From positions 248,001-312,000 of the forward strand of contig CAIJRD010000002.1 in assembly GCA_903822975.1 (NCBI GenBank): a stretch of 64,000 nucleotides of DNA, read 5' to 3'. Shown piece after piece: positions 29,430-58,176 of the stretch; within the stretch, counting starts at the first letter, position 1, and every line of letters begins with the position of its first letter. This DNA comes from an uncultured Sinobacteraceae bacterium (GTDB taxonomy: Bacteria > Pseudomonadota > Gammaproteobacteria > Nevskiales > Nevskiaceae). The position numbers were made by a program, and so were the translations under genes. Below the pieces are notes generated by a model. The model was not told the DNA's origin, searched no databases, and worked only from the letters and a program-made list of their open reading frames with translations.

Positions 29430-30905
29430 ATGAATCCAGGAATGAAGATGCAGTCGGGGCAGTCGCAGACGATGACGCCGCAGCTGTTGCAGTCGATCCG
29501 CCTGCTGCAGCTGTCCTCGCTGGAACTCGAACAGGAAGTCCGGCAGACGCTGGAAACCAACGTGATGTTGGAAGAGCCTGACGACTGCGACGACGACGAA
29601 CATGCACAGATCGCCGCCGGCGAACTGACGCTGCAGGATGCAGTACCCACCGACTGCACCGAAGCTGCCGTCACTGGCTGCGACGAAGCTGCGTTCGACA
29701 AGGTCGACGCCGATTTCGACTGGAGCAATTCCGAAAGCTGGAGCGGCAGCGAAGGTGGTGACAGCGAAGGCGAATCGCTCGAAGCCCGCACGCCCGCCCG
29801 CAATTCCGAAGACCTGCGCATGCGTGCACTCGCGCAGCTGCGCCATATCATCGACAACGAGCGCGAACAGCGCCTGGTGTCGGCATTGATCGAACAGATC
29901 GACGACAACGGCTACCTCGCCGAGACGCTCAGCGACATCCTCGCCGAGCTGCCGTCGGAGTGGGCAGTGGAGATGGACGAACTCGAAGCCGCGCTTGCGC
30001 GCGTGCAGAGTGTCGAGCCCACCGGCTTCGGTGCGCGCAATCTGCGCGAATGCCTGCTGCTGCAAATCGATGAACTGCCGCAGCGGATGCCGGGTCGTCG
30101 CACCGCGCGCCGTCTGGTGGCCGAATATCTGGAACAACTCGGCGGTCGCGATCCCGCCGCGGTTGCGAGTCTGGTCGGCTGCACGCTCGATCATTTCGGT
30201 GTGGCGATGCGTCTGATTCGCGCGCTGAACCCGAAGCCGGGTTCGACCGTGCGTGAGCCGGCGCAGAACGTGGTGCCGGATGTACTGGTCAGCGGCAACG
30301 GCTACGCCTGGAAGGTCGAGCTGAACCCGGCGACGCTGCCGCGTGTACGCGTCAACACGCGTTACGAACAACTGATGTCCGGCCGCGCGCCGCATCGCGC
30401 GCTGCGCGACAAACTGCTGGAAGCGCGCTGGCTGGTGCACGGTCTGGAAATGCGTTACGACACCTTGCTGAAAACGGCACGCGCCGTGTTCGAAGCGCAG
30501 TGCGAATTCCTGCGCCGTGGTGAAGAGGGCATGGCGCCGCTGACACTGCGCGAGATCGCAGCCCAGATCGGCATGCACGAATCGACCGTCTGCCGCGTGG
30601 TCGCCAACAAGTATGTGCAAACGCCCTGGGGCATCTATGCCTTGAAGGCGTTCTTCCCGAGCCAGATCGCACGCACCGGCGGCGACACCTCCGGCACCGC
30701 GGTGCGCGCCATGATTCGCCGCATCGTCGATGGCGAGAACCGCGCAACGCCGCTGTGCGATGGCGCGATTGCAGCCCTGCTGGCGCGAGCCGGTGTACGC
30801 GTGGCGCGCCGCACGGTGGCGAAGTATCGCGAGGCGATGAAGATCCCGCCGGCAACCGAGCGTGTGCAGTTGCTGCGCGTTGCCAATCTCAGTTTCGCGC
30901 GTTGA
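29430..30905 (+). CDS. rpoN: RNA polymerase sigma-54 factor RpoN
   Basis: This 491-residue sigma-54 factor has the N-terminal activator-response region (MTPQLLQSIRLLQLSSLELEQEV). An acidic region II spans residues about 50-120, followed by a core-binding domain, a helix-turn-helix (MHESTVCRVVANKYVQTPWG) and the RpoN box ARRTVAKYRE near residue 466. The ATG at 29430 follows GGGGAG; the longer frame to 29235 is unrelated sequence. Lying next to fleQ within the flagellar locus suggests a dedicated second copy (RpoN2), as in Xanthomonas; whether another rpoN exists cannot be seen here. Confidence 0.96.
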   Translation: MNPGMKMQSGQSQTMTPQLLQSIRLLQLSSLELEQEVRQTLETNVMLEEPDDCDDDEHAQIAAGELTLQDAVPTDCTEAAVTGCDEAAFDKVDADFDWSNSESWSGSEGGDSEGESLEARTPARNSEDLRMRALAQLRHIIDNEREQRLVSALIEQIDDNGYLAETLSDILAELPSEWAVEMDELEAALARVQSVEPTGFGARNLRECLLLQIDELPQRMPGRRTARRLVAEYLEQLGGRDPAAVASLVGCTLDHFGVAMRLIRALNPKPGSTVREPAQNVVPDVLVSGNGYAWKVELNPATLPRVRVNTRYEQLMSGRAPHRALRDKLLEARWLVHGLEMRYDTLLKTARAVFEAQCEFLRRGEEGMAPLTLREIAAQIGMHESTVCRVVANKYVQTPWGIYALKAFFPSQIARTGGDTSGTAVRAMIRRIVDGENRATPLCDGAIAALLARAGVRVARRTVAKYREAMKIPPATERVQLLRVANLSFAR

Positions 30906-30954
30906 ATCGTATTCGAGCAGCACCGCCTAAGACCAAAGCGTCACGGAGTTGAAG

Positions 30955-32451
30955 ATGGCCGAAACCAAAGTTCTGGTAATCGATGCAGACGAGCAGCGTG
31001 CGGATACGCTGGTCGAGAACCTGCGCTTCATCGAGCAGCAGCCGGTTGTGGCTGCCAGTCTCGCGGAAGTCGCGACTGCCGAACGTCACCCGCAGGAATT
31101 CAGCGCGATCATCCTCGGCCAGGATGAAGATGAAGCCTCGCTGCTGCGCTTCGGCGAATGGCTGATGCGCGATCGCTATCATCCGCCGCTGCTGGTCGCT
31201 GCGCGTCTGCACGAAAAAGTCTTGAGCACGCTGAACCTCGATCGCAGTGCTTGTCTCGCGCTGGATTATCCGGTGCGCTACACGCAATTGATCGAGCTGT
31301 TGCGCCGCGCGCAGTTGCTGCAGGCCGAATCCGCACCGGTGAAGTCGCGCGCACCGAGCGCGCCGATGGGACCAACCGGCAACTCCGCGTTGATCCGTGC
31401 GACGCGCCGGATGATCGAACAAGTCGCACCGTTTGACAGCACCGTGCTGGTGACCGGCGAATCCGGTACCGGCAAGGAAGTGGTGGCTCGCGCCGTGCAC
31501 GCCCAGTCGGGCCGCCGCGACAAGCCCTTCGTCGCGGTCAATTGCGGCGCGATTCCGGCCGAGCTGCTCGAAAGCGAATTGTTCGGTCACGAAAAAGGCG
31601 CGTTCACCGGCGCGATCACCACGCGTCGCGGACGCTTTGAAATGGCCGAGGGCGGCACGCTGTTCCTCGACGAAATCGGCGACATGAGTCTGCCGATGCA
31701 GGTGAAGATCCTGCGCGTTCTGCAGGAGCACACCTACGAACGCGTCGGCTCCAGCCGCAGCCAGCATTGCGACGTGCGCATCATCGCCGCGACGCATCGC
31801 GACCTCGAAGCTTCGATCCTGCGCGGCACCTTCCGCGAGGATCTGTACTACCGCTTGAACGTCTTCCCGATCGAACTGCCGCCGCTGCGCGAACGTCTGG
31901 AAGACCTGCCGATGATGGTCGGCGATCTGATCGCCGCCCAGGAGCGCAACAATCGCGGCAGCGTGCGACTCACCGCCGATGCGGTGCATGCGCTGCGCAG
32001 CTATCACTGGCCCGGAAATGTGCGCGAGCTGGCGAACGTGATCGAACGTCTCACGGTGTTGCATCCGACCACGGCCGTTACCGCCGCGGATCTGCCGGCG
32101 CGTTATCGCGGCAACACGCTGGCGGCGCCGTTGGAGGAATCGCCATTGGAAATGGCGCAGCCGCCGTCTGCGGCGAGTGCCGCCGCCGCGAGCCTGGCGT
32201 CGCCGCTGCCGGTTTTCGGCGAGCGCGTCGGCATTCCGTCGCTGAACCGGCTGCCGAGCAGCGGACTCGATTTGAAGGAACACATCGAGGCGATCGAGAT
32301 CAGCCTGATCCAGCAAGCGCTGGAACAGGCCGGCGGCGTCGTTGCACACGCCGCGAAGCTGCTCAACACACGTCGCACGACGCTGGTGGAAAAGCTGCGC
32401 AAATACGGACTGCATCGCGAGTTCGCCGAGCGCGAGAAAAACATCGCCTGA
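30955..32451 (+). CDS. fleQ: Sigma-54 flagellar master regulator FleQ
   Basis: This 498-residue enhancer-binding protein has an N-terminal FleQ-type receiver-like domain lacking the phospho-Asp site (residues 1-125). The AAA+ domain has Walker A GESGTGKE (168-175), the sigma-54 loop GAFTGA (215-220), Walker [10 protein letters not shown] and the R finger region. The C-terminal HTH has [30 protein letters not shown]. The ATG at 30955 follows GGAG. FleQ activates class II flagellar promoters with RpoN and is the likely activator of the five sigma-54 elements listed here. In Pseudomonas it is controlled by c-di-GMP and FleN. Confidence 0.95.
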
Positions 32452-32988: not shown

Positions 32989-34674
32989 ATGGCTGAATCC
33001 ACTGCACTTTCGTTGAACCAGCTGCGCGGTCTGAAAGACCTGCCGGCGGTGCGTCAGCTCGCGCTGCTGATCGGTCTGGCCGGAGCGATTGCCGTGGGCA
33101 TCGCGCTGTTCAGCTGGTCGCAGCAGCCGAATTACATGCCGATCTATCCCGGCCTTGCCGAGAAAGACGCGGCTGAAGTGGCCGACGCGCTGCGTGCGTC
33201 GGGTGTGCCGGTGCGACTCGATCCCGGCAGCGGCACCGTCACCGTGCCGGCCGACAAGCTCTACCAGGCGCGTATGCGGCTGGCCTCGCAGGGCCTGCCG
33301 AAGAGTGCGGCCTCCGGCATGGAGATGATTCAGCAGGAGCAGGGGCTCGGCACCAGCCAGTTCATCGAAAACGCGCGCTACCAGATGGCGCTCGAAACCG
33401 AGCTTGCGCGCACCATCAGCAGTCTGCAGCCGGTCAAATCCGCGCGCGTGCATCTGGCGCTGCCGAAAGCCTCACCGTTCGTCCGCACGCAGGACAACGC
33501 AGCGGCATCGGTGACGCTGCAGCTGTATCCGGGACGTCAGCTGGAGACCGGGCAGGTGTCGTCGATCGTGCATCTGGTCGCGTCAAGCGTGCCGGATCTA
33601 TTGCCGAGCGCGGTGACCGTGATCGATCAGTACGGACACCTGCTGACGCAAGCAGACCCCGACGGCGCACTGGCACAGAGTGCGGTTCAGTTCGACCAGA
33701 CGCACCGTCTGGAAGCGGACTATTTGCGCCGCATCGAGGAACTGCTGTCGCCGATGCTCGGTGCCGGCAAGGTCAGCGCGCAGGTCGCGGCCGACATGGA
33801 TTTCGCCGTAACCGAAGAAGCCCACGAGAGTTACAAGCCGGACAGCGCGGTGGTGCGCAGCGAACAGACCAATGAAGACACCACACGCAATGCCGCCGGC
33901 AGCGGCGGACCTGCGCAAGGCATTCCGGGCGCGACCAGCAATCTGCCGCCGACCGCCAAACCGCCGGAGCCGGTGAAGAAGGACGCAGTACCGGCCGTCG
34001 CGGGCGCGACACCTGCTGCACCGACCAGCGCCGCCGCAGCGGCTGCGCTTGCCGACAATGTCCTGAGCCAGAGCCGCAGCAATACACGCAACTACGAGCT
34101 GGACCGAACCATCAGTCACACGCGGCAGCCGGTGGGTCGCTTGAAGCGACTCTCGGTGGCGGTGCTGATCGCCGAGCCGGTGAAGACGGACCCGAAGACT
34201 GGCAAGACCACACCGGCACCGCTGACACCCGAGCAACTGGCCAAGGTCGAATCGCTGGTCAAGGAAGCGGTCGGCTTCGATGCGACGCGCGGTGACAGTG
34301 TCAGCGTGCAGACCGCCGCGTTCGCGCAGGCCGACGTGCCGCAGGTCAACGCGCTACCGTTATGGCAGCGCCCGGATCTGCGCGACATCGGCCGCCAGGC
34401 ACTCGGCGCGATCGTCGTGCTGGTGCTGATCCTCGCCGTGCTGCGGCCCTTGATGCGCAATCTGTTGTCGCCGGCGCGCGTGCCGGTGCGCCTCGCCGCC
34501 AGCGGTGCGGCCGATGGCGGGCTGGCCGACGACCGCGTCTCGATCAATCGCGGGGCGGCGGTGCTGCCCGGCATCCCTTACGAACAGACCCTGACCACGG
34601 CGCGCAATGCGGTGACGCAGGATCCCGCACGGGTGGCACAGGTCGTCAAGACCTGGCTGAGCGAAGATGGCTGA
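32989..34674 (+). CDS. fliF: MS-ring protein FliF
   Basis: This 561-residue inner membrane ring protein has TM1 near residues 22-42 and TM2 near residues 463-483. The periplasmic YscJ/FliF domain has YMPIYPGLAEKDAAEV, RLDPGSGTVTVPADKLYQARM and ARVHLALPKASPF. The linker (about residues 305-350) is unusually Pro/Ala rich. The C-terminal cytoplasmic tail that binds FliG ends QDPARVAQVVKTWLSEDG. It overlaps fliG by 8 bases. Confidence 0.97.
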   Translation: MAESTALSLNQLRGLKDLPAVRQLALLIGLAGAIAVGIALFSWSQQPNYMPIYPGLAEKDAAEVADALRASGVPVRLDPGSGTVTVPADKLYQARMRLASQGLPKSAASGMEMIQQEQGLGTSQFIENARYQMALETELARTISSLQPVKSARVHLALPKASPFVRTQDNAAASVTLQLYPGRQLETGQVSSIVHLVASSVPDLLPSAVTVIDQYGHLLTQADPDGALAQSAVQFDQTHRLEADYLRRIEELLSPMLGAGKVSAQVAADMDFAVTEEAHESYKPDSAVVRSEQTNEDTTRNAAGSGGPAQGIPGATSNLPPTAKPPEPVKKDAVPAVAGATPAAPTSAAAAAALADNVLSQSRSNTRNYELDRTISHTRQPVGRLKRLSVAVLIAEPVKTDPKTGKTTPAPLTPEQLAKVESLVKEAVGFDATRGDSVSVQTAAFAQADVPQVNALPLWQRPDLRDIGRQALGAIVVLVLILAVLRPLMRNLLSPARVPVRLAASGAADGGLADDRVSINRGAAVLPGIPYEQTLTTARNAVTQDPARVAQVVKTWLSEDG

Positions 34675-35689
34675 CAGCGGCATGGACCAAGGACTCGTCG
34701 GCGCAACCGGGCCCGAGCGGGCAGCGATCCTGTTGATGTCGCTCGGCGAAGCCGAAGCCGCACAGGTGCTCAAGCACCTCGGCGCCAAGGACGTCCAGAA
34801 AGTCGGGCAGGCGATGGCCTCGCTCACCAACGTGTCGCGCGAGCACGCCGCATCGGTGGTCACGCGCTTCGTCGACGAGATCGAGAATCAGACGTCGATC
34901 GGCGTTGGCGCCGACGACTACGTGCGGCGCGTGCTGGTTGGCGCACTGGGTGAGGACAAGGCCAGCGGACTGATCGATCGCATTCTGCTGGGACGCAACA
35001 GCAAGGGTCTCGAAGCATTGAAGTGGATGGAAACGCGCGCGGTCGCCGATCTCGTGCGCAACGAGCATCCTCAAATCGTTTCAATCGTGCTGGCTTATCT
35101 GGATCCGGATCAAGCCGCCGACATCCTCGTGCAACTGCCCGAGCGCATGCGCAGCGATGTGCTGATGCGCATCGCGCGACTCGATGGCATTCAGCCGGCG
35201 GCACTGCGCGAACTCGACGAAATCATGGAGAAGCAGTTCTCCGGCGGCGGCAATCTGAAAACCTCCAGTGTCGGCGGCGTCAAGGTTGCGGCCAACATCC
35301 TCAACCTGATGGACTCCAGCAACGAAGGCAAGATCATCGCGTCGATCTCGGAGACCGACGCCGATCTCGGCACCAGCATCCAGGACCTGATGTTCGTGTT
35401 CGACGATCTTGCCGAAGTCGACGATCGCGGCATTCAGGCGCTGCTGCGCGAAGCCAATCCGGAACTGCTCGGTGTCGCCCTGAAGGGCGCCGAGCCGCGC
35501 CTGCGCGACAAGTTCATGAAGAACATGTCGAAGCGCGCGGCCGAAATGATGGTCGAGGACATGGAAGCCAAGGGCCCGGTGCGACTCGCCGATGTCGAGG
35601 CGGCGCAGAAGGAAATCTTGACGGTCGCGCGGCGTCTCGCCGAGGCCGGCACCATCATGCTGGGCGGCAAGGGAGAAGAATTTGTCTAA
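34667..35689 (+). CDS. fliG: Motor switch protein FliG
   Basis: This 340-residue C-ring rotor protein has an N-terminal FliF-binding domain and a middle domain with the EHPQIVSIVLAYLDPDQAA motif. The EHPQ motif normally contacts FliM, which is not encoded in this locus. The C-terminal torque helix is DLMFVFDDLAEVDDRGIQ, with charged residues facing the stator. Length and motifs are normal, so the protein itself gives no sign of adaptation to a missing FliM. Confidence 0.97.
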   Translation: MADSGMDQGLVGATGPERAAILLMSLGEAEAAQVLKHLGAKDVQKVGQAMASLTNVSREHAASVVTRFVDEIENQTSIGVGADDYVRRVLVGALGEDKASGLIDRILLGRNSKGLEALKWMETRAVADLVRNEHPQIVSIVLAYLDPDQAADILVQLPERMRSDVLMRIARLDGIQPAALRELDEIMEKQFSGGGNLKTSSVGGVKVAANILNLMDSSNEGKIIASISETDADLGTSIQDLMFVFDDLAEVDDRGIQALLREANPELLGVALKGAEPRLRDKFMKNMSKRAAEMMVEDMEAKGPVRLADVEAAQKEILTVARRLAEAGTIMLGGKGEEFV

Positions 35690-38103: not shown

Positions 38104-39587
38104 ACACGGCGTCCTCAATCTCGGCGCATCAACCGGCGGTGAAGCCGGTGCGCACCACGCTGTATCGCCAGGATGAGGCCGGCGCGGACGACGCCAAGGC
38201 TTATGCGCGCGTGCACGAACAGACGCAGGCGCAGACTCAAGTACAGGCTCAAGTACAGACACAAGTACAGACTCAAGTACAGGCTCAAGCTCAATACCGG
38301 ACACAAGCTCAGGCAAAAACTCAAGCACAAACTCAAGCACAAACCGACGCCGCTGCGGCCGACGCTGATAGCGGCCCGCACGCGCCGACCACATCGCCGA
38401 CCAGCGGCCGGACACCCGCGTCCGCGGCGAGGGCGGATGCTGCGAAGACAGATGCTGCAAAGACATCCACGTCAACGCATGCGGACCGGTCGACTGCCAA
38501 ATCGACGTCGTCGCGCTCTGGAGAGGCGGCGCGCAGTCACGCATCACACGAAAAGTCGGACGCAGTCGACGCTGGCGATCGGGCTGACGATGCCGGCTCG
38601 GCAGACTCGGCAGACTCGGCAGACTCGGCGGACGCAGCGGATTCGGCGGATGAGAACGGCGCGACGAACCTCGTGACGGCAGGCGGCGCTGCTGCAGGCG
38701 CGAATGCGCCAGCGGATGGCGCCGTCGTGCAGCCGTCGAGTGGCGACCTCGCGCGCATTGCCTGGATGCTGGGTGCCGTGAAGGCGGTTTCGACGGTGGC
38801 CAACGATCAGGCGAACGGATTGAGTTCAGCGCGCGCGCCGGCGTCGAGTGTGCTCGGTAGCGCTGTGGTCGTCGGCGGCAGTCGCGGAACCGCTGCGATG
38901 GCAATCGGCGATCCGGTTGACGATGCCGGCACGACAAGCATGAGCCTGCTCGGCGACAAGGCGCATGGCAGCGCAGCCGGCAGCGCGTCGGTCCTCCCGT
39001 TTTCGTTGCTGCCGGACGCTGCTAATTCCGCATCGCGACCCATCGACCCGATGGCGACCGTCGTCGCCGCAGGTACGCCAGTGCCACTGCCGACGAATGC
39101 CACGCAGGCGGCGACCAGCACCGAGGCTGCGCCGTTGTCGACTTTGTCTTCTTCACTCGCATCAATGGCCAGCACGCTCGGTAGCGCGCCGATTGCGCTT
39201 GATCAGCCCGGCTGGACCGGTGGACTCGGCGCGCACCTGCATCTGCAGCTCGCGCAGGGCGTGCAAGAGGCGCGTCTGGAACTGCATCCGCGTGACTGGG
39301 GCATGTTGCAAATTCATTTGAAGATCGTCGGCAGCGAGGCGCAGCTGCAGTTCAACACGGCGCACCCGCAGGCACGCGCCGCGCTGGAAGCCGGCTTGCC
39401 GGATTTGCGCACCCAGCTCGCCAGCGATGGCCTGCAGCTGCAAACGCAGGTCGGTCAGCAACAGCAGTCGCGGCAGCAGACCTTCCGACCGGCATTCACC
39501 GCCGCCGAACGCGCGGATGAACCTGAGGCGACCTCAGCGCCGCAGATCCGGTCGATCCGCATCGGCCTGGTTGACGACTTCGCCTGA
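38100..39587 (+). CDS. fliK: Hook-length control protein FliK with repeat-rich N-terminus
   Basis: This 495-residue secreted ruler would stop hook export at the right length. The C-terminal domain (about residues 375-470) has the FliK_C pattern GAHLHLQLAQGVQEARLELH, GMLQIHLKIVGSEAQLQF and ARAALEAGLPDLRTQLASDG. The N-terminal half is low complexity: a Gln-rich tract (residues about 40-84) from 12-bp DNA repeats and an S-A-D tract (residues about 168-185) from 9-bp repeats. In other species ruler length sets hook length, so these repeats could change hook length. ATGA overlap with fliJ. Confidence 0.93.
   Translation: MNTASSISAHQPAVKPVRTTLYRQDEAGADDAKAYARVHEQTQAQTQVQAQVQTQVQTQVQAQAQYRTQAQAKTQAQTQAQTDAAAADADSGPHAPTTSPTSGRTPASAARADAAKTDAAKTSTSTHADRSTAKSTSSRSGEAARSHASHEKSDAVDAGDRADDAGSADSADSADSADAADSADENGATNLVTAGGAAAGANAPADGAVVQPSSGDLARIAWMLGAVKAVSTVANDQANGLSSARAPASSVLGSAVVVGGSRGTAAMAIGDPVDDAGTTSMSLLGDKAHGSAAGSASVLPFSLLPDAANSASRPIDPMATVVAAGTPVPLPTNATQAATSTEAAPLSTLSSSLASMASTLGSAPIALDQPGWTGGLGAHLHLQLAQGVQEARLELHPRDWGMLQIHLKIVGSEAQLQFNTAHPQARAALEAGLPDLRTQLASDGLQLQTQVGQQQQSRQQTFRPAFTAAERADEPEATSAPQIRSIRIGLVDDFA
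38232..38351 (+). repeat. 12-bp tandem repeats encoding Gln-rich tetrapeptides in fliK
   Basis: About ten 12-bp units related to CAGACTCAAGTA and CAAACTCAAGCA run from 38232. The first five are the closest to each other. They encode QTQV/QAQV/QTQA tetrapeptides and preserve frame. Confidence 0.88.
38601..38654 (+). repeat. 9-bp tandem repeats encoding A-D-S in fliK
   Basis: Three exact copies of GCAGACTCG are followed by three diverged copies (GCGGACGCA, GCGGATTCG, GCGGATGAG). They encode the acidic A-D-S tract. Confidence 0.85.
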
Positions 39588-39833
39588 ACGTCGACGCGTC
39601 GGATCGGTTTGTCCGCATCGACGGTTTTGCTCAAATACCCGACTGCCTTTGCAAGCTCGCAATCGCTTGTTGCGACCAGCTAAGACGGCACGTCGCGGCG
39701 TAGCTGAAGCAACGCGAGTGACAAACTGACGCGACGCATTTCCGGCAGGGCAGCTCAGCACCGGCCAGTCAAAATTCCGGCGTAGGCACCCGCGATTCGC
39801 CGCCACAGCGGGCCAGCATCGGTCACCATTGCA

Positions 39834-39849
39834 TGGCATACGGCTTGCT
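39834..39849 (+). promoter_or_regulatory. Sigma-54 type promoter of fliL operon
   Basis: TGGCAT ACGGC TTGCT is the best sigma-54 match in the window (GG-N10-GC). It lies about 31 bases before the fliL ATG. The 292-base gap after fliK therefore marks a true operon boundary. Confidence 0.8.
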
Positions 39850-39879
39850 CCACGCCGCCCGACTTCAATGGAGTAGGCG

Positions 39880-40485
39880 ATGGCCACCGCAGCAAAAGCC
39901 GCAAGCAAAAAAGAACGCGACGAAGACGACGAAGCGCCGGCCGCCGCGCCGCCGAAGCCGGCCAAGCGCGGGGGTCTGTTGCTGCCCTTGATCGGTGTTG
40001 CGGTAATCGCAGCCGGTGCTGCCGGCGGTGGCGTGTGGTTCATGACGCGTCATGCCGCGCATCCGGCCGCCCATGTCGCCGCAGAGGGTGCCGCTGAAGC
40101 GGGCGCCGCCGAGGGCGGGGAGGCACCCGCAGGCGAAGGCGCGAGTGCGCCGGCCGGCGATGGTTCTGCGGCGATCTACCTCGATCTGATGCCGGCGTTC
40201 GTCGTCAACCTTGCCGACGAGGAGGCCATCCGCTTTCTGCAGGTCGAAGTGGAACTGATGGCGCGCGACTCAAAATCGATCGACGCGGCGAAGGATCATA
40301 TGCCGAAGATTCGCAATGCTCTATTGCTACTGTTTGCGCAGCAGCAGTCTCACCAACTGGCGACGCGCGAGGCCAAGGTCAAGCTGCAGGCCGATGCACT
40401 GGCAGAAGTTCAGCGCGCGCTGCGCGAGGAAAAAGTGCCGGCGGCCATCGAAGGCGTCTATTTCACCGCGTTCGTGATCCAGTGA
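39880..40485 (+). CDS. fliL: Flagellar basal body protein FliL
   Basis: This 201-residue single-pass inner membrane protein has a TM helix at residues about 30-53 (GLLLPLIGVAVIAAGAAGGG). The periplasmic domain has YLDLMPAFVVNLADEEAIRFLQVEVELMA-type residues, and the C-terminal region has VPAAIEGVYFTAFVIQ. FliL stabilises the stator-rotor contact. It overlaps the 18-codon minigene that sits where fliM should be. Confidence 0.95.
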   Translation: MATAAKAASKKERDEDDEAPAAAPPKPAKRGGLLLPLIGVAVIAAGAAGGGVWFMTRHAAHPAAHVAAEGAAEAGAAEGGEAPAGEGASAPAGDGSAAIYLDLMPAFVVNLADEEAIRFLQVEVELMARDSKSIDAAKDHMPKIRNALLLLFAQQQSHQLATREAKVKLQADALAEVQRALREEKVPAAIEGVYFTAFVIQ

Positions 40486-40541
40486 TGGCCGCGAACGTTC
40501 ATTTCAAAGGTTTCAGCCACAACACAGGTGCCGCACCATGA
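40485..40541 (+). other. 18-codon minigene in the fliM slot (possible scar)
   Basis: The frame encodes MAANVHFKGFSHNTGAAP. Its ATG overlaps the fliL stop (TGATG), and its TGA overlaps the fliN ATG (ATGA). These are the kinds of coupled junction seen throughout this locus and expected on either side of fliM. The peptide does not resemble the FliM N-terminus (usually with LLSQDEIDALL). It may be what remains of fliM after an internal in-frame loss, a leader that couples fliL to fliN, or chance. Confidence 0.4.
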
Positions 40542-40930
40542 GTCTCGTCAGCGATGCCGTTAATCCCGTAGCGTCCGGTTCCGCCAGCGGTGCGCCGAAT
40601 GCGCCACCCACCGACTACGCCCGCGCCAGCTTCCAGAATCTGCAGACGGATCCTTCCGGGCACGGCGGTGACATCGATATTGATGTGCTGCTCGATGTCG
40701 GCGTGACCTTGTCGATGGAAGTCGGCCGTGCACGTTTGCCGATCCGCAACCTGTTGCAGCTGAATCAGGGTTCGGTGGTGGAACTGGAACGCGCTGCCGG
40801 CGAGCCGCTCGATGTCTATGCCAACGGCACGCTGATCGCACACGGCGAAGTCGTGGTGGTCAACGAGAAGTTCGGCGTGCGTCTGACCGATGTGGTCAGC
40901 CCGGCCGATCGCATCCGCAAGCTGCGTTGA
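40538..40930 (+). CDS. fliN: Motor switch protein FliN
   Basis: This 130-residue C-ring protein has the SpoA domain (residues 45-130) with IDVLLDVGVTLSMEVGRARL, IRNLLQLNQGSVVELERAAG and VVNEKFGVRLTDVVSPADRI. The first 45 residues are a Ser/Ala/Pro-rich tail of usual length. It is a normal FliN and not a FliM-FliN fusion. It follows fliL by 52 bases, with no fliM between them. Confidence 0.96.
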   Translation: MSLVSDAVNPVASGSASGAPNAPPTDYARASFQNLQTDPSGHGGDIDIDVLLDVGVTLSMEVGRARLPIRNLLQLNQGSVVELERAAGEPLDVYANGTLIAHGEVVVVNEKFGVRLTDVVSPADRIRKLR

Positions 40931-40935
40931 ACGCC

Positions 40936-41298
40936 ATGACCGCACCTGCGGTGGCGACCGGTGCGGGCATGCTGCAGACCGCCTTGAGCCTGCTGCTGGT
41001 GCTTGCTGCGATTTTCGCGCTGGCCTGGTTGCTGCGTCGTGTGCAGGGCTTTCGGCCGCCTTCGAGTGCTGCACTGAGCGTGCGCGGCGGCCTGCAGGTT
41101 GGTCCGAAAGAGCGGGTGCTGTGGCTGCGTGCCGGCAATCAGGACTTGTTGATCGGTGTGGCCGCCGGCCGCGTGCAGACCCTGCACGTATTCGATCAAG
41201 CGCCGGACGAAATGGTACTGCCGCCGTTGCCGGCAGCAACGCCACCGAGCTTTGCCGACGCGCTGCGCAAAGTGATGCGCGGCAACAAGCCGCAGTAA
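40936..41298 (+). CDS. fliO: Flagellar export protein FliO
   Basis: This 120-residue single-pass membrane protein aids assembly of the FliP ring. It has a TM helix at residues about 12-31 (LQTALSLLLVLAAIFALAWLL) followed by the FliO domain (LSVRGGLQVGPKERVLWLRAG). The ATG at 40936 is preferred; a TTG at 40927 overlapping the fliN stop as TTGA is an alternative. FliO is poorly conserved; position confirms it. Confidence 0.88.
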   Translation: MTAPAVATGAGMLQTALSLLLVLAAIFALAWLLRRVQGFRPPSSAALSVRGGLQVGPKERVLWLRAGNQDLLIGVAAGRVQTLHVFDQAPDEMVLPPLPAATPPSFADALRKVMRGNKPQ

Positions 41299-41324
41299 GT
41301 TGTCCTCAATCTCGCTGAACCCAG

Positions 41325-42128
41325 ATGCCGAGCGAAATGGCTGCCATGAATCCTGAAATCCGCCGGCACCGCCTGCTGAGGTCGATGCGCGCCTGGTGCG
41401 TCATCGGCGTCTCGTTGACGGCTGTGATCGCATTGCCGGCGTTTGCCGTCGCCGCACCAGCGCTGACTCTGCCGGCCGGCCCCAATGGTCAGAGCTACAG
41501 CCTGAGCATTCAGCTGCTGCTGGCGATGACGGCGCTGACGCTGCTGCCCGCCGCATTGATGACGATGACCGCGTTCACGCGCATCGTCGTTGTGCTCGGA
41601 CTGCTGCGTCAGGCGATGGGTACCGGCAATACGCCGTCCAACCAGATTTTGCTCGGACTGTCGTTGTTCCTGACGCTGTTCGTGATGGCGCCGGTCGAGC
41701 AGAAGGTCTATGCCGATGCGCTGCAGCCCTACATCGACGGCAAGCTGGAGTTCCAGCCGGCGGTGGCGGCGGCGGCCAAGCCGATGCGCGGGTTCATGCT
41801 GGCGCAAACGCGCAATGACGATCTGATGACCTTCACCCGCATCTCCGGTAACAAGCGCTTCGAGACGCCGGACGATATTCCGTTCACGGTGCTCGCAGCG
41901 GCCTACATGACCAGCGAGCTGACCACCGCCTTCCAGATCGGCTTCATGCTGTTCATTCCGTTCGTGGTGATCGATCTGGTGGTCGCCAGCGTGTTGATGA
42001 GCATGGGCATGATGATGCTGTCGCCGATGCTGATCTCGCTGCCGTTCAAGCTGATGCTGTTCGTGTTGGTGGATGGCTGGGCGCTGGTAATGGGCTCGCT
42101 CGCAGCCAGCTTCGCAGCCCCCGTATGA
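41325..42128 (+). CDS. fliP: Flagellar export gate protein FliP
   Basis: This 267-residue polytopic protein of the export gate is made with a cleavable signal (about residues 20-43, then AAPALTLPAG). Core signatures include MTAFTRIVVVLGLLRQAMGTGNTP, VLAAAYMTSELTTAFQIGF and SMGMMMLSPMLISLPFKLMLFVLVDGW. The start could also be the ATG at 41346. ATGA overlap with fliQ. Confidence 0.96.
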   Translation: MPSEMAAMNPEIRRHRLLRSMRAWCVIGVSLTAVIALPAFAVAAPALTLPAGPNGQSYSLSIQLLLAMTALTLLPAALMTMTAFTRIVVVLGLLRQAMGTGNTPSNQILLGLSLFLTLFVMAPVEQKVYADALQPYIDGKLEFQPAVAAAAKPMRGFMLAQTRNDDLMTFTRISGNKRFETPDDIPFTVLAAAYMTSELTTAFQIGFMLFIPFVVIDLVVASVLMSMGMMMLSPMLISLPFKLMLFVLVDGWALVMGSLAASFAAPV

Positions 42129-49968: not shown

Positions 49969-50367
49969 GTGGATCGTCAAGCACGCATCCTGATCGTCGA
50001 TGACTTTTCCAGCATGCGGCGCATCGTGCGCACGGTGCTGCAGGACCGCGGCTATCACTGCACCGCAGAAGCCAGCGATGGCCGCCTGGCCTGGGCGGCG
50101 TTGCAAGCGCAACGTTTCGATCTGGTGGTCACCGACTTGAACATGCCAGTGATGAGCGGGCTGGAGTTGCTGCGCAAGATTCGCTCGGATGAACGCTGCG
50201 CCGGCACCAAGGTGCTGATCGTGACGGCGGAGGCCAAACGCGAGCAGATCGTCGAGGCGGTTGCCGCAGGGGTCGACGACTATCTGGTGAAGCCATTCAC
50301 GGAGCAGCTGCTGCGCGACAAGATCGATCGCATCATGACGCCACGCAGCCTCGGAGTTGCCGCGTGA
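49969..50367 (+). CDS. cheY: Chemotaxis response regulator CheY
   Basis: This 132-residue single-domain receiver has all key residues: D11-D12, phospho-acceptor D56 (VVTDLNMPVMSG), T86 (LIVTAEAK) and K108 (YLVKPF). The GTG at 49969 follows GGGGAGG. CheY-P normally binds the FliM N-terminus. Neither FliM, nor the CheA kinase, nor the CheZ phosphatase is encoded in this window, so its partners must lie elsewhere or be absent. The next frame begins in a GTGA overlap. Confidence 0.95.
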   Translation: MDRQARILIVDDFSSMRRIVRTVLQDRGYHCTAEASDGRLAWAALQAQRFDLVVTDLNMPVMSGLELLRKIRSDERCAGTKVLIVTAEAKREQIVEAVAAGVDDYLVKPFTEQLLRDKIDRIMTPRSLGVAA

Positions 50368-50585: not shown

Positions 50586-51326
50586 ATGGATCTGCTCAGC
50601 ATCATCGGCTTCGCCCTCGGCATGACCGCCATCATCGGCGGCGAGATGCTGCATGGTGGCGGTGTATCCGGATTGCTCGGCGGACCTGCGGCGACGATCG
50701 TCTTCGTCGGCACCTCCGGCGCGATCCTGCTGCAGACACCGATGAAAACCTTCAAGCATGCGTTGGGCATGCTGCGCTGGGTGTTCAAACCGCCGAGTCT
50801 CGATGGCGCCGCCTTGATTGCGCGCATCGTCGAGTGGAGCAACGCCGCGCGCAAGCAGGGCTTGCTGGCCCTCGAAAGTGCCGCCGAGTCCGAGCCGGAT
50901 CACTTCCTGAAGAAAGGCCTGCAGATGCTGGTGGATGGCGCCGAGCCCGACGTGATCCGCAAGACCCTGGACGTGGAACTCAACAACCGCGAGCACTTCG
51001 ACCTGGCCAGCGCCAAGGTGTTCGAGGGCATGGGCATCTATGCGCCGACGATGGGCATCATCGGCGCCGTGATGGGGCTGATGGAAGTGATGGCGAATCT
51101 CGCCGACCCCAGCAAGCTCGGTCCCGGCATCGCGGCCGCGTTCATCGCCACGATCTATGGCATCGCCTCGGCGAACCTGTTTTTCCTGCCGATGGCGTCG
51201 AAGTTGAAATCCGTTGTCGGCGACCAGACCCGTGTGCGCGAAATGACGATCGAAGGTCTGGTGTCGATTTCGCAAGGCGAAAATCCGCGCAACATCGAAG
51301 CGAAACTACAGGGCTACCTGCACTGA
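50586..51326 (+). CDS. motC: Flagellar stator protein MotA/MotC
   Basis: This 246-residue MotA-type stator subunit has four TM helices and the cytoplasmic loop with torque residues. Characteristic stretches are IIGFALGMTAIIGGEMLHGG, PDVIRKTLDVELNNREHF, EGMGIYAPTMGIIGAVMGL and LGPGIAAAFIATIYGIASAN. Position after cheY and pairing with the next gene match motC of Pseudomonas. It is probably proton-driven, but ion choice is not proven by sequence. Confidence 0.93.
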   Translation: MDLLSIIGFALGMTAIIGGEMLHGGGVSGLLGGPAATIVFVGTSGAILLQTPMKTFKHALGMLRWVFKPPSLDGAALIARIVEWSNAARKQGLLALESAAESEPDHFLKKGLQMLVDGAEPDVIRKTLDVELNNREHFDLASAKVFEGMGIYAPTMGIIGAVMGLMEVMANLADPSKLGPGIAAAFIATIYGIASANLFFLPMASKLKSVVGDQTRVREMTIEGLVSISQGENPRNIEAKLQGYLH

Positions 51327-51327
51327 T

Positions 51328-52689
51328 ATGGCACGCGTCAAACACGAAGAACATCAGAACCACGAAGCCTGGGCGATTCCCTACGGCGACCTCGTCACCT
51401 TGCTGTTGGCGTTCTTCGTCGTCATGTATTCGATCTCATCGGTCAATGAGGGCAAGTATCGTGTGTTGTCCGATGCGCTGTCGCAGGCCTTCGGCGGTCC
51501 TCCGAAATCGATGAAGCCGGTGCAGATGGGCAGCCATCGCGCGAGCGGATCCAACTCCGATCAACGGATCAACATCCTCAACCAGAACAGCGTCGAGCAA
51601 ACCCTGGCGGGCGACATGCACGACGCACGCAGCGCGGTGGTGATGGCCGGAAAACTCAAGCTGCCGACCGCGCTGCAGCAGCTCAGTGCATCGGGCGCGA
51701 CCGGTTACAACGCACAGAAGGCCGCCTTGCAACACATGGCCGACGAAGTACAGAAGGCGATGGGGCCATTGATCGATCGCAAGATGATCATCGTGCGAAA
51801 GACCGATACGCGGCTGGAGATCGAGATTCGCACCGATATCCTGTTTGCCAGCGGTGTGGCGATGGTGGATGCGCGTGCTCAGCCGATTCTGGCCAAACTC
51901 GCCGCGATCATGCAGCCGTTTCCAAACGCTTTGAGAATCGAAGGCCACACCGACAACGTACCGATTCATACCCTCATGTTCGCTTCGAACTGGGAGCTGT
52001 CCGCAGCGCGCGCGGCGTCGGTGGTGCACTTGTTCATGGAGCGCGGAGTCGATCCGAAACGGATGAGCGTGGAGGGCTTCGGCGAATACCAGCCGGCGCT
52101 CGACAACAGCAGCGTTGAAGGCCGCAACCGCAATCGCCGCGTCGTGCTGGTGGTCTTGGCCGCGCCCGGCGAGACGGTCCCGGTGGAATCGGACGCAGAA
52201 GCTGAAACGAAGCCGGTGTCGGATGCGACTGCTGCTGCGGATGGCGCGACGACGCTGGCGTCCGCATCGTCAGGTGCTACGTCGCCAGTGTCGGCGTCGA
52301 AGGCGATGCCATCGTCGTTGGCCTCATCGCCATCGCAATCGTCATCGCCATCGTCGTCGGCATCATCGATCTCTCCAGCAGCCATCGCCGCGACGCCAGC
52401 ATCGTCCGCTGCGACTGCAGTGACTGCGCCGACCGCAACATCCTCATCGACAGCCGCGCCAACAGCAGCCCCAACAAGCGCCTCAACCAACGCCTCAACC
52501 GGCGCCTCGACAACTGCCGATACGACCGCCTCAACAGCAGTGCCAACCAAAGCATCGGCTGCGTCGATGCGGACAGTCGGCAGTGCGACCGCATCGTCGC
52601 CGTCGAACGATGCCGCGTCCCATGCTGCCGGCGTTGCGAGCGCTGCGCGCGCGAGCGCGCAGCCGGTTGTGGCGAAGACGCCGCCTTAA
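51328..52689 (+). CDS. motD: Flagellar stator protein MotB/MotD with long Ser/Ala/Thr tail
   Basis: This 453-residue stator subunit has an N-terminal PYGDLVTLLLAFFVVMYSIS helix with ion-binding Asp21. The periplasmic OmpA-like domain has ALRIEGHTDNVPIHT, SNWELSAARAASVV and GRNRNRRVVLVVLA. After about residue 280 comes a tail of some 170 residues made almost only of Ser, Ala, Thr, Pro and Val, partly from 12-bp repeats. MotB/MotD proteins usually end soon after the OmpA domain, so this tail is unusual and would lie in the periplasm. It starts one base after motC. Confidence 0.92.
   Translation: MARVKHEEHQNHEAWAIPYGDLVTLLLAFFVVMYSISSVNEGKYRVLSDALSQAFGGPPKSMKPVQMGSHRASGSNSDQRINILNQNSVEQTLAGDMHDARSAVVMAGKLKLPTALQQLSASGATGYNAQKAALQHMADEVQKAMGPLIDRKMIIVRKTDTRLEIEIRTDILFASGVAMVDARAQPILAKLAAIMQPFPNALRIEGHTDNVPIHTLMFASNWELSAARAASVVHLFMERGVDPKRMSVEGFGEYQPALDNSSVEGRNRNRRVVLVVLAAPGETVPVESDAEAETKPVSDATAAADGATTLASASSGATSPVSASKAMPSSLASSPSQSSSPSSSASSISPAAIAATPASSAATAVTAPTATSSSTAAPTAAPTSASTNASTGASTTADTTASTAVPTKASAASMRTVGSATASSPSNDAASHAAGVASAARASAQPVVAKTPP
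52480..52539 (+). repeat. 12-bp tandem repeats in the motD tail
   Basis: Units GCCTCAACCAAC, GCCTCAACCGGC, GCCTCGACAACT, GCCGATACGACC and GCCTCAACAGCA run head to tail and encode A-S-T-N/G type tetrapeptides. Copies are diverged but keep the 12-bp period. Confidence 0.75.
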
Positions 52690-54522: not shown

Positions 54523-55704
54523 TCAGGGCAGCGGATGCGCGCGCAAGTAGGCGAGGAACGCCGGGTTCTGCGTTTGCGGCCAACGCGTGTGATTGTGCTG
54601 CTCGCGTTTCTGGATCGCCGGATCGGTCGAGTGGCCCTCGCAGGCCGGATCGCAGGCCTGGACGATGTTCTCGTTGTCATCGAGGATTTCGCCGCTGACC
54701 AGCGACGGCGGTACCAGAACGCCGGCGCGCAGATCGTCGAGGAATTGGTTGCCGGCCACGCAGGCATTGCCGACATCGCAGGACCGCACCACCAGCTTCA
54801 ACGGTCGCGTGGTGTTGGTGGCCGACGCGGGCTGCGGGCAAGGATCGGCCGGATCATCGAACGGGCTGATGCTTGAATAAATGTCGGTCGCTGCGATGCC
54901 GGGCGTGTTGATGCCGTAGAGCGATGCCATGTCGGCGCCTTCCGAGTGGCCCGACATGTAGACGCGCTTGGTATCAACCGTTCCGCGCGACTCGACCTCG
55001 GCGATGAAGTGATCGATCGCGGCCACATCCTGATTGACATAGCGGCTGCCGCGATTGAAGTTGCGATACCAGTGATCCCAGCCAATGCCGGTGCTGAGCG
55101 GTGCCGGCAGAAACATCTCGATATTACGACCGTACGGAATCAACAGGCTGTAACCGAGCTGCTTCGGATCGGAGCCGAGCAGGCCGGTCTTGGTCAGCGG
55201 GGCGAGACCCGTGCCGCCGAAGGCATCCTTCGCGACCAGCGTCGGATGCAGCCATACCAGCAGCGGCAACGGCGCGGACTTCGTCGCTTTCGGTGTCGTG
55301 ATCAGGCAGGCCTGGCGCGGCGTGTTGTCGGAGTCGGTCCAATTCAGAATTTCGCCACCGTCGATCGTGCACAGCGGCAGGATCCTGGTCAGGAAGCCGT
55401 CGAGCGCTCCATCCAAAGACACCTTGACGACCTTGCGTGCAGGCGCGCCGTAAGCGGTACAGCCGGCGCCATTGATCGGCGGCGGTTGATCGCCACCGCT
55501 GGTGCCGCCGCCGGAAGTTCCGCCGGTGCTGCCTCCAGTGGACCCGCCAGTGGAGCCGCCAGTGGAGCCGCCAGTGGACCCACCGGAGCTGGCGACTTCG
55601 GTCGGGTCGCTGCCGCCGAAACAATGGCTCAGCGCGAGTGTCGACAGCAGAATTGCAAGCGTCGCGAAACGACGTGGTTGAAAACGACGAACTGGGTTGT
55701 ACAT
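54523..55704 (-). CDS. Lipoprotein serine hydrolase, paralogue 1
   Basis: This 393-residue exported protein has a signal ending LALSHC (probable lipid-modified Cys28) and a Gly-Gly-Ser-Thr linker (about residues 40-65) from 12-bp repeats. The alpha/beta-hydrolase core has the nucleophile elbow GHSEG. Conserved around it are GWDHWYRNFNRGSRYVNQ, DVAAIDHFI and SSISPFDDPADPCPQP, plus paired cysteines suggesting disulphides. It resembles secreted PHB depolymerase/esterase-type hydrolases only broadly, so the substrate is unknown. It is the most diverged of three tandem copies and the only one with the long linker. All end in AYLRAHPLP. Confidence 0.8.
   Translation of the reverse strand: MYNPVRRFQPRRFATLAILLSTLALSHCFGGSDPTEVASSGGSTGGSTGGSTGGSTGGSTGGTSGGGTSGGDQPPPINGAGCTAYGAPARKVVKVSLDGALDGFLTRILPLCTIDGGEILNWTDSDNTPRQACLITTPKATKSAPLPLLVWLHPTLVAKDAFGGTGLAPLTKTGLLGSDPKQLGYSLLIPYGRNIEMFLPAPLSTGIGWDHWYRNFNRGSRYVNQDVAAIDHFIAEVESRGTVDTKRVYMSGHSEGADMASLYGINTPGIAATDIYSSISPFDDPADPCPQPASATNTTRPLKLVVRSCDVGNACVAGNQFLDDLRAGVLVPPSLVSGEILDDNENIVQACDPACEGHSTDPAIQKREQHNHTRWPQTQNPAFLAYLRAHPLP
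55511..55582 (-). repeat. 12-bp tandem repeat encoding Gly-Gly-Ser-Thr linker
   Basis: On the plus strand four units of CCAGTGGAGCCG or its one-base variants run from 55535 to 55582, with two more diverged units from 55511. They encode G-G-S-T tetrapeptides between the lipobox and the hydrolase domain. Confidence 0.88.
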
Positions 55705-55802
55705 GTGAATGGCCTCTTGATTTTTTGTTTCCCGACAACTTTGTGTGTGTTGTCTCGCGGCACGATCGGGATTGTTCGGCTGCGAGAGGATTGGAAAGCG
55801 GA

Positions 55803-56921
55803 TTAGGGCAGCGGATGCGCGCGCAAATAAGCCAGAAGTTCAGGATTCCGAGAGACTGGCCATGGCACGTGATTGAGCTGTTCGCGTATGAAAGTCACCG
55901 TGTCCGGGTTGGGGTCTTCACAGGTCGGATCGCAGGCTTCGACCACCTTGCCCTGCAGATCGAGGGTTTCGCCGCCGACGTTGGCAGCAGGCAGCACGCC
56001 GGCCCGGAGCTGGTCCAAGAACTGATGACCCGCGACGCAGGCATTGCCGGCATCGCAGGCGCGCGTCGTCAGAAAATACGGACGCGTGTTGTTGCTGGCG
56101 AATGGCGCTTGCGGACACGGATCGGCCGGATCATCGAACGGGCTGATTGACGAGAACACGCGAGTCGCCGCAATTCCTGGAGTGTTGAGTCCGTACAGCG
56201 TTGCCATGTCTGCGCCTTCGGAGTGGCCGGTGATGTACACACGCTTGGTGTCGACGATGCCTTCGGCTTCTGTCGCAGCAATGAAGTGATCGATCGCAGC
56301 AACATCCGGATTCAGATACGGCGAGCCGCGATTGAAGTTGCGATACCAGTGATCCCAACCGATCCCGTAATTCACTGGAAACGGCAGAAACTGCTCGATG
56401 TCGCGGCCTTCGGGCATCAAGATATTGAAGCCGGGCTCGGCATCGTTCGCGCCGAGTACCGCGGTCTTACTCTGTGGTACCAGCCCAGTGATCAATAGTG
56501 CATCTGGTCCAATGCCTGTCGGCGGCAGATACACCAGCAAGGGCAGTGGATGTGTCGGGCTGGACTGTGGCGCCTTGATCAGGCACGCGGTGCGCGGTGT
56601 GGCGTTCGCATCGGTCCAGGTCAGCACTTCGCCGTCGTGCAGGCGACAGCTTTCGACAATCGCCATCAGCACCTTGTTGATCGCGCCGTCCAGCGATTCG
56701 GCCACGGTCGCACGCGGTCGCACGCCATACGCGCTGCAGCCCTGCGCGTTGTAAACGGGTGCCGCGGCACGTTCAGCAACGTCGGGCGTGACGCTGCTGC
56801 CGCAGGCAGCCAGCAATGCGAGACAACCGCAAACAAATCCGCAAACAAACCCGCGGATAAGCCCGCCGGCTGCGAGCCGGCGGATTGATTGGATGCTCGG
56901 TACTCTCATCGAAAGAGTCAT
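55803..56921 (-). CDS. Lipoprotein serine hydrolase, paralogue 2
   Basis: This 372-residue exported hydrolase has a signal peptide ending LALLAACGSS (lipobox) and the elbow ITGHSEGADMATLYGLN. Like its neighbours it has GWDHWYRNFNRGSPYLNP, FSSISPFDDPADPCPQ, ACDAGNACVAGHQFLDQLRAG and the tail LLAYLRAHPLP. I chose the ATG at 56921 (a second at 56909 is possible); the frame stays open further upstream, but that part overlaps the end of paralogue 3. It lacks the Gly-Ser-Thr linker. Substrate unknown. Confidence 0.8.
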   Translation of the reverse strand: MTLSMRVPSIQSIRRLAAGGLIRGFVCGFVCGCLALLAACGSSVTPDVAERAAAPVYNAQGCSAYGVRPRATVAESLDGAINKVLMAIVESCRLHDGEVLTWTDANATPRTACLIKAPQSSPTHPLPLLVYLPPTGIGPDALLITGLVPQSKTAVLGANDAEPGFNILMPEGRDIEQFLPFPVNYGIGWDHWYRNFNRGSPYLNPDVAAIDHFIAATEAEGIVDTKRVYITGHSEGADMATLYGLNTPGIAATRVFSSISPFDDPADPCPQAPFASNNTRPYFLTTRACDAGNACVAGHQFLDQLRAGVLPAANVGGETLDLQGKVVEACDPTCEDPNPDTVTFIREQLNHVPWPVSRNPELLAYLRAHPLP

Positions 56922-57072
56922 TGGCTTGCCAGGGACCTGTGATCGGGAACGGCCATACGAATACCGGCGTGTCGCGAGCGCGCACAGGCGAGCGCTTGTG
57001 TAGCCGCCAAGTGCGGCAAGGCCGCGCATGAACGCGGCGCACGCAAGGTATGGATGCGAAGCTGATCTCTCC

Positions 57073-58176
57073 TCATGGCAGCGGATGCGCGCGCAAGTAG
57101 GCGAGGAATTCGGCGTTGCGACTGACCGGCCAGAGGAGATGATTGGCCTGCTCGCGCAGGAAGTCGGTGAAGTTCGGGTTCGGGTCTTCGCACGTGGCGT
57201 CGCAGGCGCTGACGAGCTTGCCGGAGAGATCCAGGATTTCGCCGCCGACATCCACGACCGGCAGCACACCCGCACGCAATTCGTCGAGGAACTGGTTGCC
57301 GGCCTTACAGGCGTTTCCCGTATCGCAGGCGCGCTCGGTGACGAAGTAAGGACGAATGTTGGTTGCGGTCGGTGCTTGTGGGCAGGGGTCGGCCGGATCG
57401 TCGAACGGGCTGATGGTCGAGAACACGCGGGTGGCGGCAATGCCCGGCGTATTCAATCCGTACAGCGTGCCCATATCGGCGCCCTCGGAGTGTCCGGTGA
57501 CGAAGATGCGCTTGCTGTCGACGATGCCTTTCGCCTTGCTGGCCTCGATGAAGTGATCGATCGCGGCCACGTCCGGATTCAGATAATCGGAGCCGCGATT
57601 CAGATTGCGATACCAGTGATCCCAGCCGACGCCGTAGTCGAGCGGCGCCGGCAGGAACTGTTCGATGTTGCGCGGAACGGGAATCAGCAGATTGAAGCCG
57701 GGCTGACTGGGATCGGCCGCAAGCTGACCGGTTGCCGTCAGCGGTGCCAGTCCGCTCAACAACACGGAGTCGAGCCCCACCAAGGTCGGCGGAAGGTACA
57801 CCAGCAAAGGCATCGGCTGACTTGGGCTCGTCTGCGGCGCCTTGATCAGGCAGGCCTCGCGCGGCGTGCCGTTGGCGTCCGACCAGGTCATCATCTCGCC
57901 CGAATGGAGCGTGCAGGAGTTGACGATCGCATTGAGCAGGTTGTTGAGAGCGAGATCGAGCGAGACCGGCACGACCGCGCGCGGCCTTACGCCATAGACG
58001 CTGCATCCGGCTGCGTCGTACACCGGTGCGGCGTTCGCCGCGGCGGAGGTGTCTGGTGTGTTGCTGCCGCCGCAAGCGCTGAGCAAAAGCGCTACTGAAA
58101 TCGACAGCAGTCGGTTACCGCCAGTGGCGCCGAGAGAAGTGCGAGATAGGGCGGGTGCTTTGAGAAAAAATGTCAT
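57073..58176 (-). CDS. Lipoprotein serine hydrolase, paralogue 3
   Basis: This 367-residue exported hydrolase has a signal ending LLSACGGS (Cys35) and the elbow VTGHSEGADMGTLYGLN. Conserved positions are shared with paralogues 1 and 2: CSVYGVRPRAVVPVSLD, GVGWDHWYRNLNRGSDYLNP, FSTISPFDDPADPCPQ and ends FLAYLRAHPLP. It lies 84 bases after rhlC on the same strand, so the hydrolases could be read through from the rhamnolipid operon. Short direct repeats of GGTGTATCGGT lie just upstream of the start. Confidence 0.8.
   Translation of the reverse strand: MTFFLKAPALSRTSLGATGGNRLLSISVALLLSACGGSNTPDTSAAANAAPVYDAAGCSVYGVRPRAVVPVSLDLALNNLLNAIVNSCTLHSGEMMTWSDANGTPREACLIKAPQTSPSQPMPLLVYLPPTLVGLDSVLLSGLAPLTATGQLAADPSQPGFNLLIPVPRNIEQFLPAPLDYGVGWDHWYRNLNRGSDYLNPDVAAIDHFIEASKAKGIVDSKRIFVTGHSEGADMGTLYGLNTPGIAATRVFSTISPFDDPADPCPQAPTATNIRPYFVTERACDTGNACKAGNQFLDELRAGVLPVVDVGGEILDLSGKLVSACDATCEDPNPNFTDFLREQANHLLWPVSRNAEFLAYLRAHPLP

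Follow-up and report, generated by a model that had tools for sequence, protein, structure and literature searches.

Is fliM lost from the flagellar gene cluster of this uncultured Sinobacteraceae bacterium (genome G000), or is it encoded elsewhere, and what is the short open reading frame that occupies its usual place? The question arises from the window, i.e., the whole 64,000-nucleotide stretch that was analysed (C2:248001-312000), in which fliL is followed by fliN. The first-pass annotation read this junction as a possible rotor without FliM and the 18-codon frame as the residue of a clean in-frame loss, while allowing that FliM may be encoded elsewhere. A clean operon gap inside a fixed window is weak evidence of gene loss.

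The fliL-fliN junction

The junction itself is as the annotation described it. The sequence, the Pfam matches and a FliM-family search of the whole genome agreed that fliL is followed by fliN and that neither the letters nor the translations of the window contain fliM (Table 1). The arrangement that defines a fliLMN operon, with fliM between fliL and fliN, is not found in G000, where the order at this locus is fliL, fliN, fliP, fliR, flhB. The fliL stop codon (TGA, 40483-40485) overlaps the start codon of the 18-codon frame (ATG, 40485-40487) as TGATG, and the stop codon of that frame (TGA, 40539-40541), which encodes MAANVHFKGFSHNTGAAP, overlaps the fliN start codon (ATG, 40538-40540) as ATGA. 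The translation of fliG also confirmed that FliG retains the EHPQ motif. No Rfam family matched the window at gathering scores. Gene names other than those given by the family searches were assigned by reading the translations and by BLAST between these genomes. By eye, an rpoN-like gene adjoins a fleQ-like gene (29430-32451) within the flagellar cluster, an arrangement that was matched also in the congener G001.

Table 1. Features of the window discussed in the text (positions are those of the window).
Feature	Position	Strand	Basis
fliG, intact, with EHPQ motif	34667..35689	+	FliG_N, FliG_M, FliG_C (Pfam)
GTCAAAA-type box GTCAAAATTCCGGCG ahead of fliL, potential FleQ-type site	39768..39782	+	motif likeness
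sigma-54-like promoter element of fliL, TGGCATACGGCTTGCTC	39834..39850	+	exact pattern match
fliL	39880..40485	+	Pfam FliL, E=9.6e-26
18-codon frame at the usual place of fliM	40485..40541	+	sequence; TGATG with fliL, ATGA with fliN
fliN	40538..40930	+	Pfam FliMN_C, E=4e-24
second, diverged cheY-like gene (cheY') after fliA	49969..50367	+	Response_reg
motA-motB, still at the old place but lacking cheZ and cheA1, which stand before motA in the congeners read	50586..52689	+	

A complete fliM gene downstream of the window

The FliM-family search of the whole genome gave a single match, free of stop codons, at C2:321154-321732 (E=1.9e-73). It lies on the same contig as the window, approximately 9 kb past the window end and 32.5 kb downstream of fliL. 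We took the gene as C2:321037-322047 (L001:1384-2394), which encodes 336 residues beginning MSGPLQDLLSQDEIDALL; this start was picked to match relatives (G009), and the frame is open further upstream, giving 375 residues from the first ATG. The predicted protein carries the PF02154 middle domain (246 bits, against a curated cut-off of 27) and a C-terminal FliMN_C (SpoA) domain (79.5 bits, residues 253-322). The N-terminal CheY-binding motif of FliM, LLSQDEIDALL, is present in the translation as MSGPLQDLLSQDEIDALLHG.

At its new place fliM heads a series of genes on one strand, fliM-cheY-cheZ-STAS-cheY-cheA-cheW-mcp-cheR-cheD, of which CheY, CheZ and STAS were confirmed by Pfam and the first three have operon-like spacing. 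The approximately 20 kb between motB and fliM contain no match to flagellar or che reference proteins at E<=1e-4. Three similar esterase-like genes, recognized by eye, stand in tandem in this interval (54523-58176, minus strand).

The suggestion that FliM may be encoded elsewhere is therefore borne out by a complete gene, with both domains and the CheY-binding motif that a genome-wide search was expected to recognize. True loss of FliM is ruled out by this full-length gene on the same contig; a rotor that works without FliM, for which the absence of fliM from the window spoke, is almost certainly not what this genome encodes. Judged by gene content, the flagellar C ring is genetically complete in G000; the motor is probably ordinary and the flagellar gene order unusual, and FliM would be expected to bind the product of the adjoining chemotaxis genes. 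This forestalls what could have become a false claim that the motor lacks FliM.

Conservation of fliL-fliM-fliN in related genomes

We surveyed gene order in related genomes, counting fliL and fliM as adjacent when the FliM and FliL domain matches lay on the same contig and strand, less than 700 bases apart. Within the family, 58 genomes were searched and 48 contained both proteins; the genes were adjacent in 47, G000 being the sole exception. In 24 genomes from other families of the order, both were present in 15 and adjacent in 15/15; one genome of this set (G048) had FliL without FliM. The class sample of 184 genomes, which shares G039 and G041 with the order-level set, contained both in 95 and adjacent genes in 92 (92/94 when G000 is left out), the exceptions being G000, G168 and G211. 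Among the matches listed in a wider survey of the class (377 genomes), adjacency was found in at least 62 of 67 additional genomes.

BLAST of the 80 named loci around FliM similarly gave the order fliL-fliM-fliN in 78. At L089 no fliL was detected upstream of fliM, and at L137 fliN lies 2 kb from fliM; cheY is not beside fliM at either locus. In three genomes (G107, G117 and G243) fliM and fliN are adjacent and FliL was undetected. The nearest named relative, Nevskia sp. MAG_CA22 (L063), has a FliM that is 85% identical and a normal gene order. The adjacency in all 47 other family genomes that contain both genes contradicts the idea, raised with the first-pass annotation, that fliM might always have been at another locus in relatives. 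The conclusion that fliM left an ancestral fliL-fliM-fliN order in the G000 lineage is supported.

We also asked where the relocated gene comes from. A FliM tree with 33 rows, 30 taken from a set of 44 matches and three from named loci, groups the G000 protein with those of the congeners G001, G009 and G012 (SH-aLRT 99), so fliM was inherited. Identity to the proteins of these three genomes is 81-86% for FliM, 81-85% for FliN and 74-87% for FliP. Horizontal import of fliM is ruled out by its placement within the genus.

A fliL-type region upstream of the relocated fliM

Sigma-54 promoters have a consensus of the GG(-24)/GC(-12) type, and an element of this type, TGGTATGCGGCTTGCTC, lies upstream of the relocated fliM at C2:320916-320932. 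The pattern TGGYAYRCGGCTTGCTC has two sites without mismatches in the 4.46-Mb genome, one upstream of fliL (C2:287834) and one upstream of fliM (C2:320916). With up to two mismatches it gave 16 matches as compared to 13 for a control pattern, and therefore only the exact sites are informative. A sigma-54-like element together with a AGTCAAAA box precedes fliL in G000, G009 and G001, and a similar combination precedes fliM in G000. In the 131.5 kb of G000 scanned, the motif GTCAAAANN[CT]CG[GT]CG, which was composed after inspecting the sites, has three occurrences, one upstream of fliL and two upstream of fliM.

The likeness between the upstream regions of fliM and fliL spans about 120 bp. Alignment of the two G000 regions scored 58, where 1000 dinucleotide shuffles reached at most 43, and the fliM upstream region scored 52 (shuffle maximum 44) with the fliL upstream region of G009 and 46 (shuffle maximum 40) with that of G001, controls that leave shared promoter function and elements unaccounted for. 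Because the shuffles ignore shared promoter function, these scores establish a fliL-type upstream region at fliM and not its date, and it is possible that the likeness arose by convergence. A duplicate of the fliL-type sigma-54 promoter probably drives the joint transcription of fliM, cheY and cheZ. In this genome a very conserved flagellar neighbourhood is split, while fliM apparently carries its promoter along.

Short frames at the junctions

The 18-codon frame had been interpreted as what remained of fliM after an in-frame loss. Local alignment of the 52-nt gap with fliM of G000, G009 and G001 found no significant similarity (p 0.52-0.84), and the last 32 bases before the ATGA, compared with three fliM 3' ends, scored 34 against 26.8 expected (p 0.13). 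The TGATG had been considered the junction expected at a fliM start. In G009 and G001, however, the fliL-fliM junction is ATGA (CAATGAG), so the start of the minigene is not the old fliM start. At the fliL-fliN junctions of G211 and G168, inspection by eye showed that the stretch from the stop of fliL to the start of fliN lacks an ATG. The proposed residue is thus unsupported by similarity, by the form of its start junction and by other junctions lacking fliM.

For the chance expectation, a bridging frame was defined as one with an ATG within -4 to +10 bases of the end of the fliL stop and ending at the fliN ATGA. When the 52-nt gap was shuffled 20,000 times with its dinucleotides preserved, such a frame arose in 19% of cases; with the gap length drawn from 30-75, it arose in 7%. 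The minigene is therefore not clearly beyond chance and, having been seen in no second genome, does not qualify as a translated small gene. We read the 18-codon frame as a spacer, possibly one that couples the translation of fliN.

Two further short frames flank the relocated gene. Upstream, a 26-codon frame (L001:1307-1387) follows an AGGAGG and runs into fliM through an ATGA overlap. The chance of such a frame is about 18% (a 55% chance of being open in the given frame, multiplied by one third); as a fliL residue it found no support (p 0.07 and 0.27). Downstream, a 33-codon frame (L001:2391-2492) opens at the fliM stop in another ATGA and closes 3 bases ahead of the cheY start.

Origin of the split

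The congeners G001 and G012 have the order fliL-fliM-fliN...fliA-cheY-cheZ-cheA1-motA-motB-STAS-cheY-cheA2, with cheW before STAS in G001. The G000 genes read fliL-fliN...fliA-cheY'-motA-motB at the old place and promoter-fliM-cheY-cheZ-STAS-cheY-cheA2... at the new one, and the gene order within these pieces follows the ancestral one. The cheA1-cheW genes, which lie around motAB in the congeners, are together on contig C11 (L209:14698-17110); their presence there rules out loss of cheA1 from G000. A tree of 28 rows pairs cheY' with the relocated cheY as sisters (ultrafast bootstrap 97, SH-aLRT 91); cheY' is on a very long branch (1.23 changes per site) and has an unusual composition. Among 41 genomes, G000 alone has two matches to cheY' at E<=1e-25.

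Because the pieces are collinear and cheY' is sister to the relocated cheY, the data fit a duplication of the region in the G000 lineage followed by reciprocal gene loss between the copies, which we consider the probable course of events. The ancestral block from fliL through cheA2 would have been duplicated, after which copy 1 would have lost fliM, cheZ and cheA1, and copy 2 fliL and fliN...fliA, with cheA1-cheW ending up on another contig. On this view the 18-codon frame would be a spacer remaining where fliL now meets fliN, and may hand ribosomes from one to the other; the 26-codon frame, which lies after the copied promoter and before fliM, may likewise hand them on to fliM. A simple tandem duplication is insufficient, because approximately 20 kb free of flagellar or che matches lie between motB and fliM and cheA1-cheW are on another contig. 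No second genome showed an intermediate of duplication and loss. Clear remnants of fliM, fliL or fliN were not found at the junctions (lowest p 0.028, for the frame after fliM against fliN of G009). Among the nine comparisons made in all, uncorrected, the frame after fliM gave p 0.09 (G000) and 0.03 (G009) against fliN, and p 0.06 (G000) and 0.25 (G009) against the fliA-cheY regions. By eye, the end of the fliM-cheY gap resembles the fliA-cheY gap of G001.

Alternatively, transposition or recombination could have carried fliM alone into the che operon, where it captured, or converged on, a fliL-like promoter, with no large duplication. The lack of clear remnants of other duplicated genes is consistent with such a move, as are the other genes that fill the space between the old and new places and the example of G211, in which fliM sits singly between cheR and cheY. 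It does not readily accommodate the approximately 120 bp of likeness to the fliL upstream region, the two boxes before fliM, the duplication of cheY as well, or the collinearity of the genes at the new place, and we regard it as unlikely, though worth keeping in mind. A separate proposal, compatible with duplication and reciprocal loss, holds that the 18-codon frame is a selected coupling element that ties fliN translation to fliL after the departure of fliM. Its overlaps with both neighbours and the parallel 26-codon leader into fliM argue for selection; the frequency of both frames by chance, the lack of a second genome known here with the 18-codon frame, and the fliL-fliN junctions of G211 and G168, which have none, argue against it and make it doubtful.

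The split could also be an artefact of assembly or binning, the true genome having fliL-fliM-fliN. G000 is a draft of 20 contigs and 93.81% completeness, but the old and the new place both lie well within a single 747-kb contig. Window positions 39001-42000 share no exact sequence longer than 13 bp with the 3.6-kb fliM locus, which is too short for misjoining through repeats. Moreover, a promoter-like region of their own precedes the genes at the new place, and the spacing of the first three of them is that of an operon. An artefact is therefore very improbable, and duplication with reciprocal loss is the reading we retain.

Comparison with other flagellar systems

In sum, fliM has undergone a rare relocation and is preceded by a fliL-type promoter region; this is unusual operon evolution and not a new motor. 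The literature searched, most of it not in depth, yielded no report of fliM relocated beside cheY, and passages of PMC9321776, PMC6120874 and PMC8036289 contain none. In Campylobacterota, flagellar and che gene order has been altered by rearrangement and loss, as in G000, according to passages of PMC9321776; this is another phylum, and those passages describe no move of fliM beside cheYZ. In Pseudomonas, passages of PMC6120874 report that FleQ with RpoN activates fliLMNOPQ, and fliL of G000 similarly has a sigma-54-like element and a GTCAAAA box upstream. This type of box resembles the first half of the proposed FleQ consensus, which the same passages regard as unsettled. Unlike in the Pseudomonas operon, fliM of G000 no longer stands between fliL and fliN, and a separate fliL-like region lies upstream of it.

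Of the three class-sample genomes with fliM apart from fliL, two have it directly upstream of cheY. The second, the gammaproteobacterium G211, has the order mcp-cheR-fliM-cheY-cheA (L207:6861-8434), with an ATGA overlap between fliM and cheY and a FliM confirmed by Pfam; its fliL and fliN are adjacent, about 15 kb from fliM and on the other strand. As in G000, fliM is absent between fliL and fliN; unlike in G000, the FliM is distant (36% identity, tblastn) and the fliL-fliN junction has no minigene. The split in G211 is regarded as a separate event, because this genome belongs to another family of the class. Neither G168 nor its congener G276 shows a reference flagellar or che gene next to fliM in the stretches read; the contig of G168 stops shortly past that gene. 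Together, G000 and G211 suggest a recurrent route of fliM to cheY. A broader and rather speculative proposal, which we think more likely wrong than right by some distance, is that fliM moved beside cheY repeatedly because linkage of switch and CheY is favoured; in G000 this would have happened through duplication and reciprocal loss, with two short frames coupling translation at both scars and two CheY paralogues that may share work at one FliM.

The fla/che operon of Bacillus subtilis has the order fliL-fliM-fliY-cheY. There, as in G000, fliM is near cheY in one operon, whereas fliL and fliM, separated in G000, stay together.
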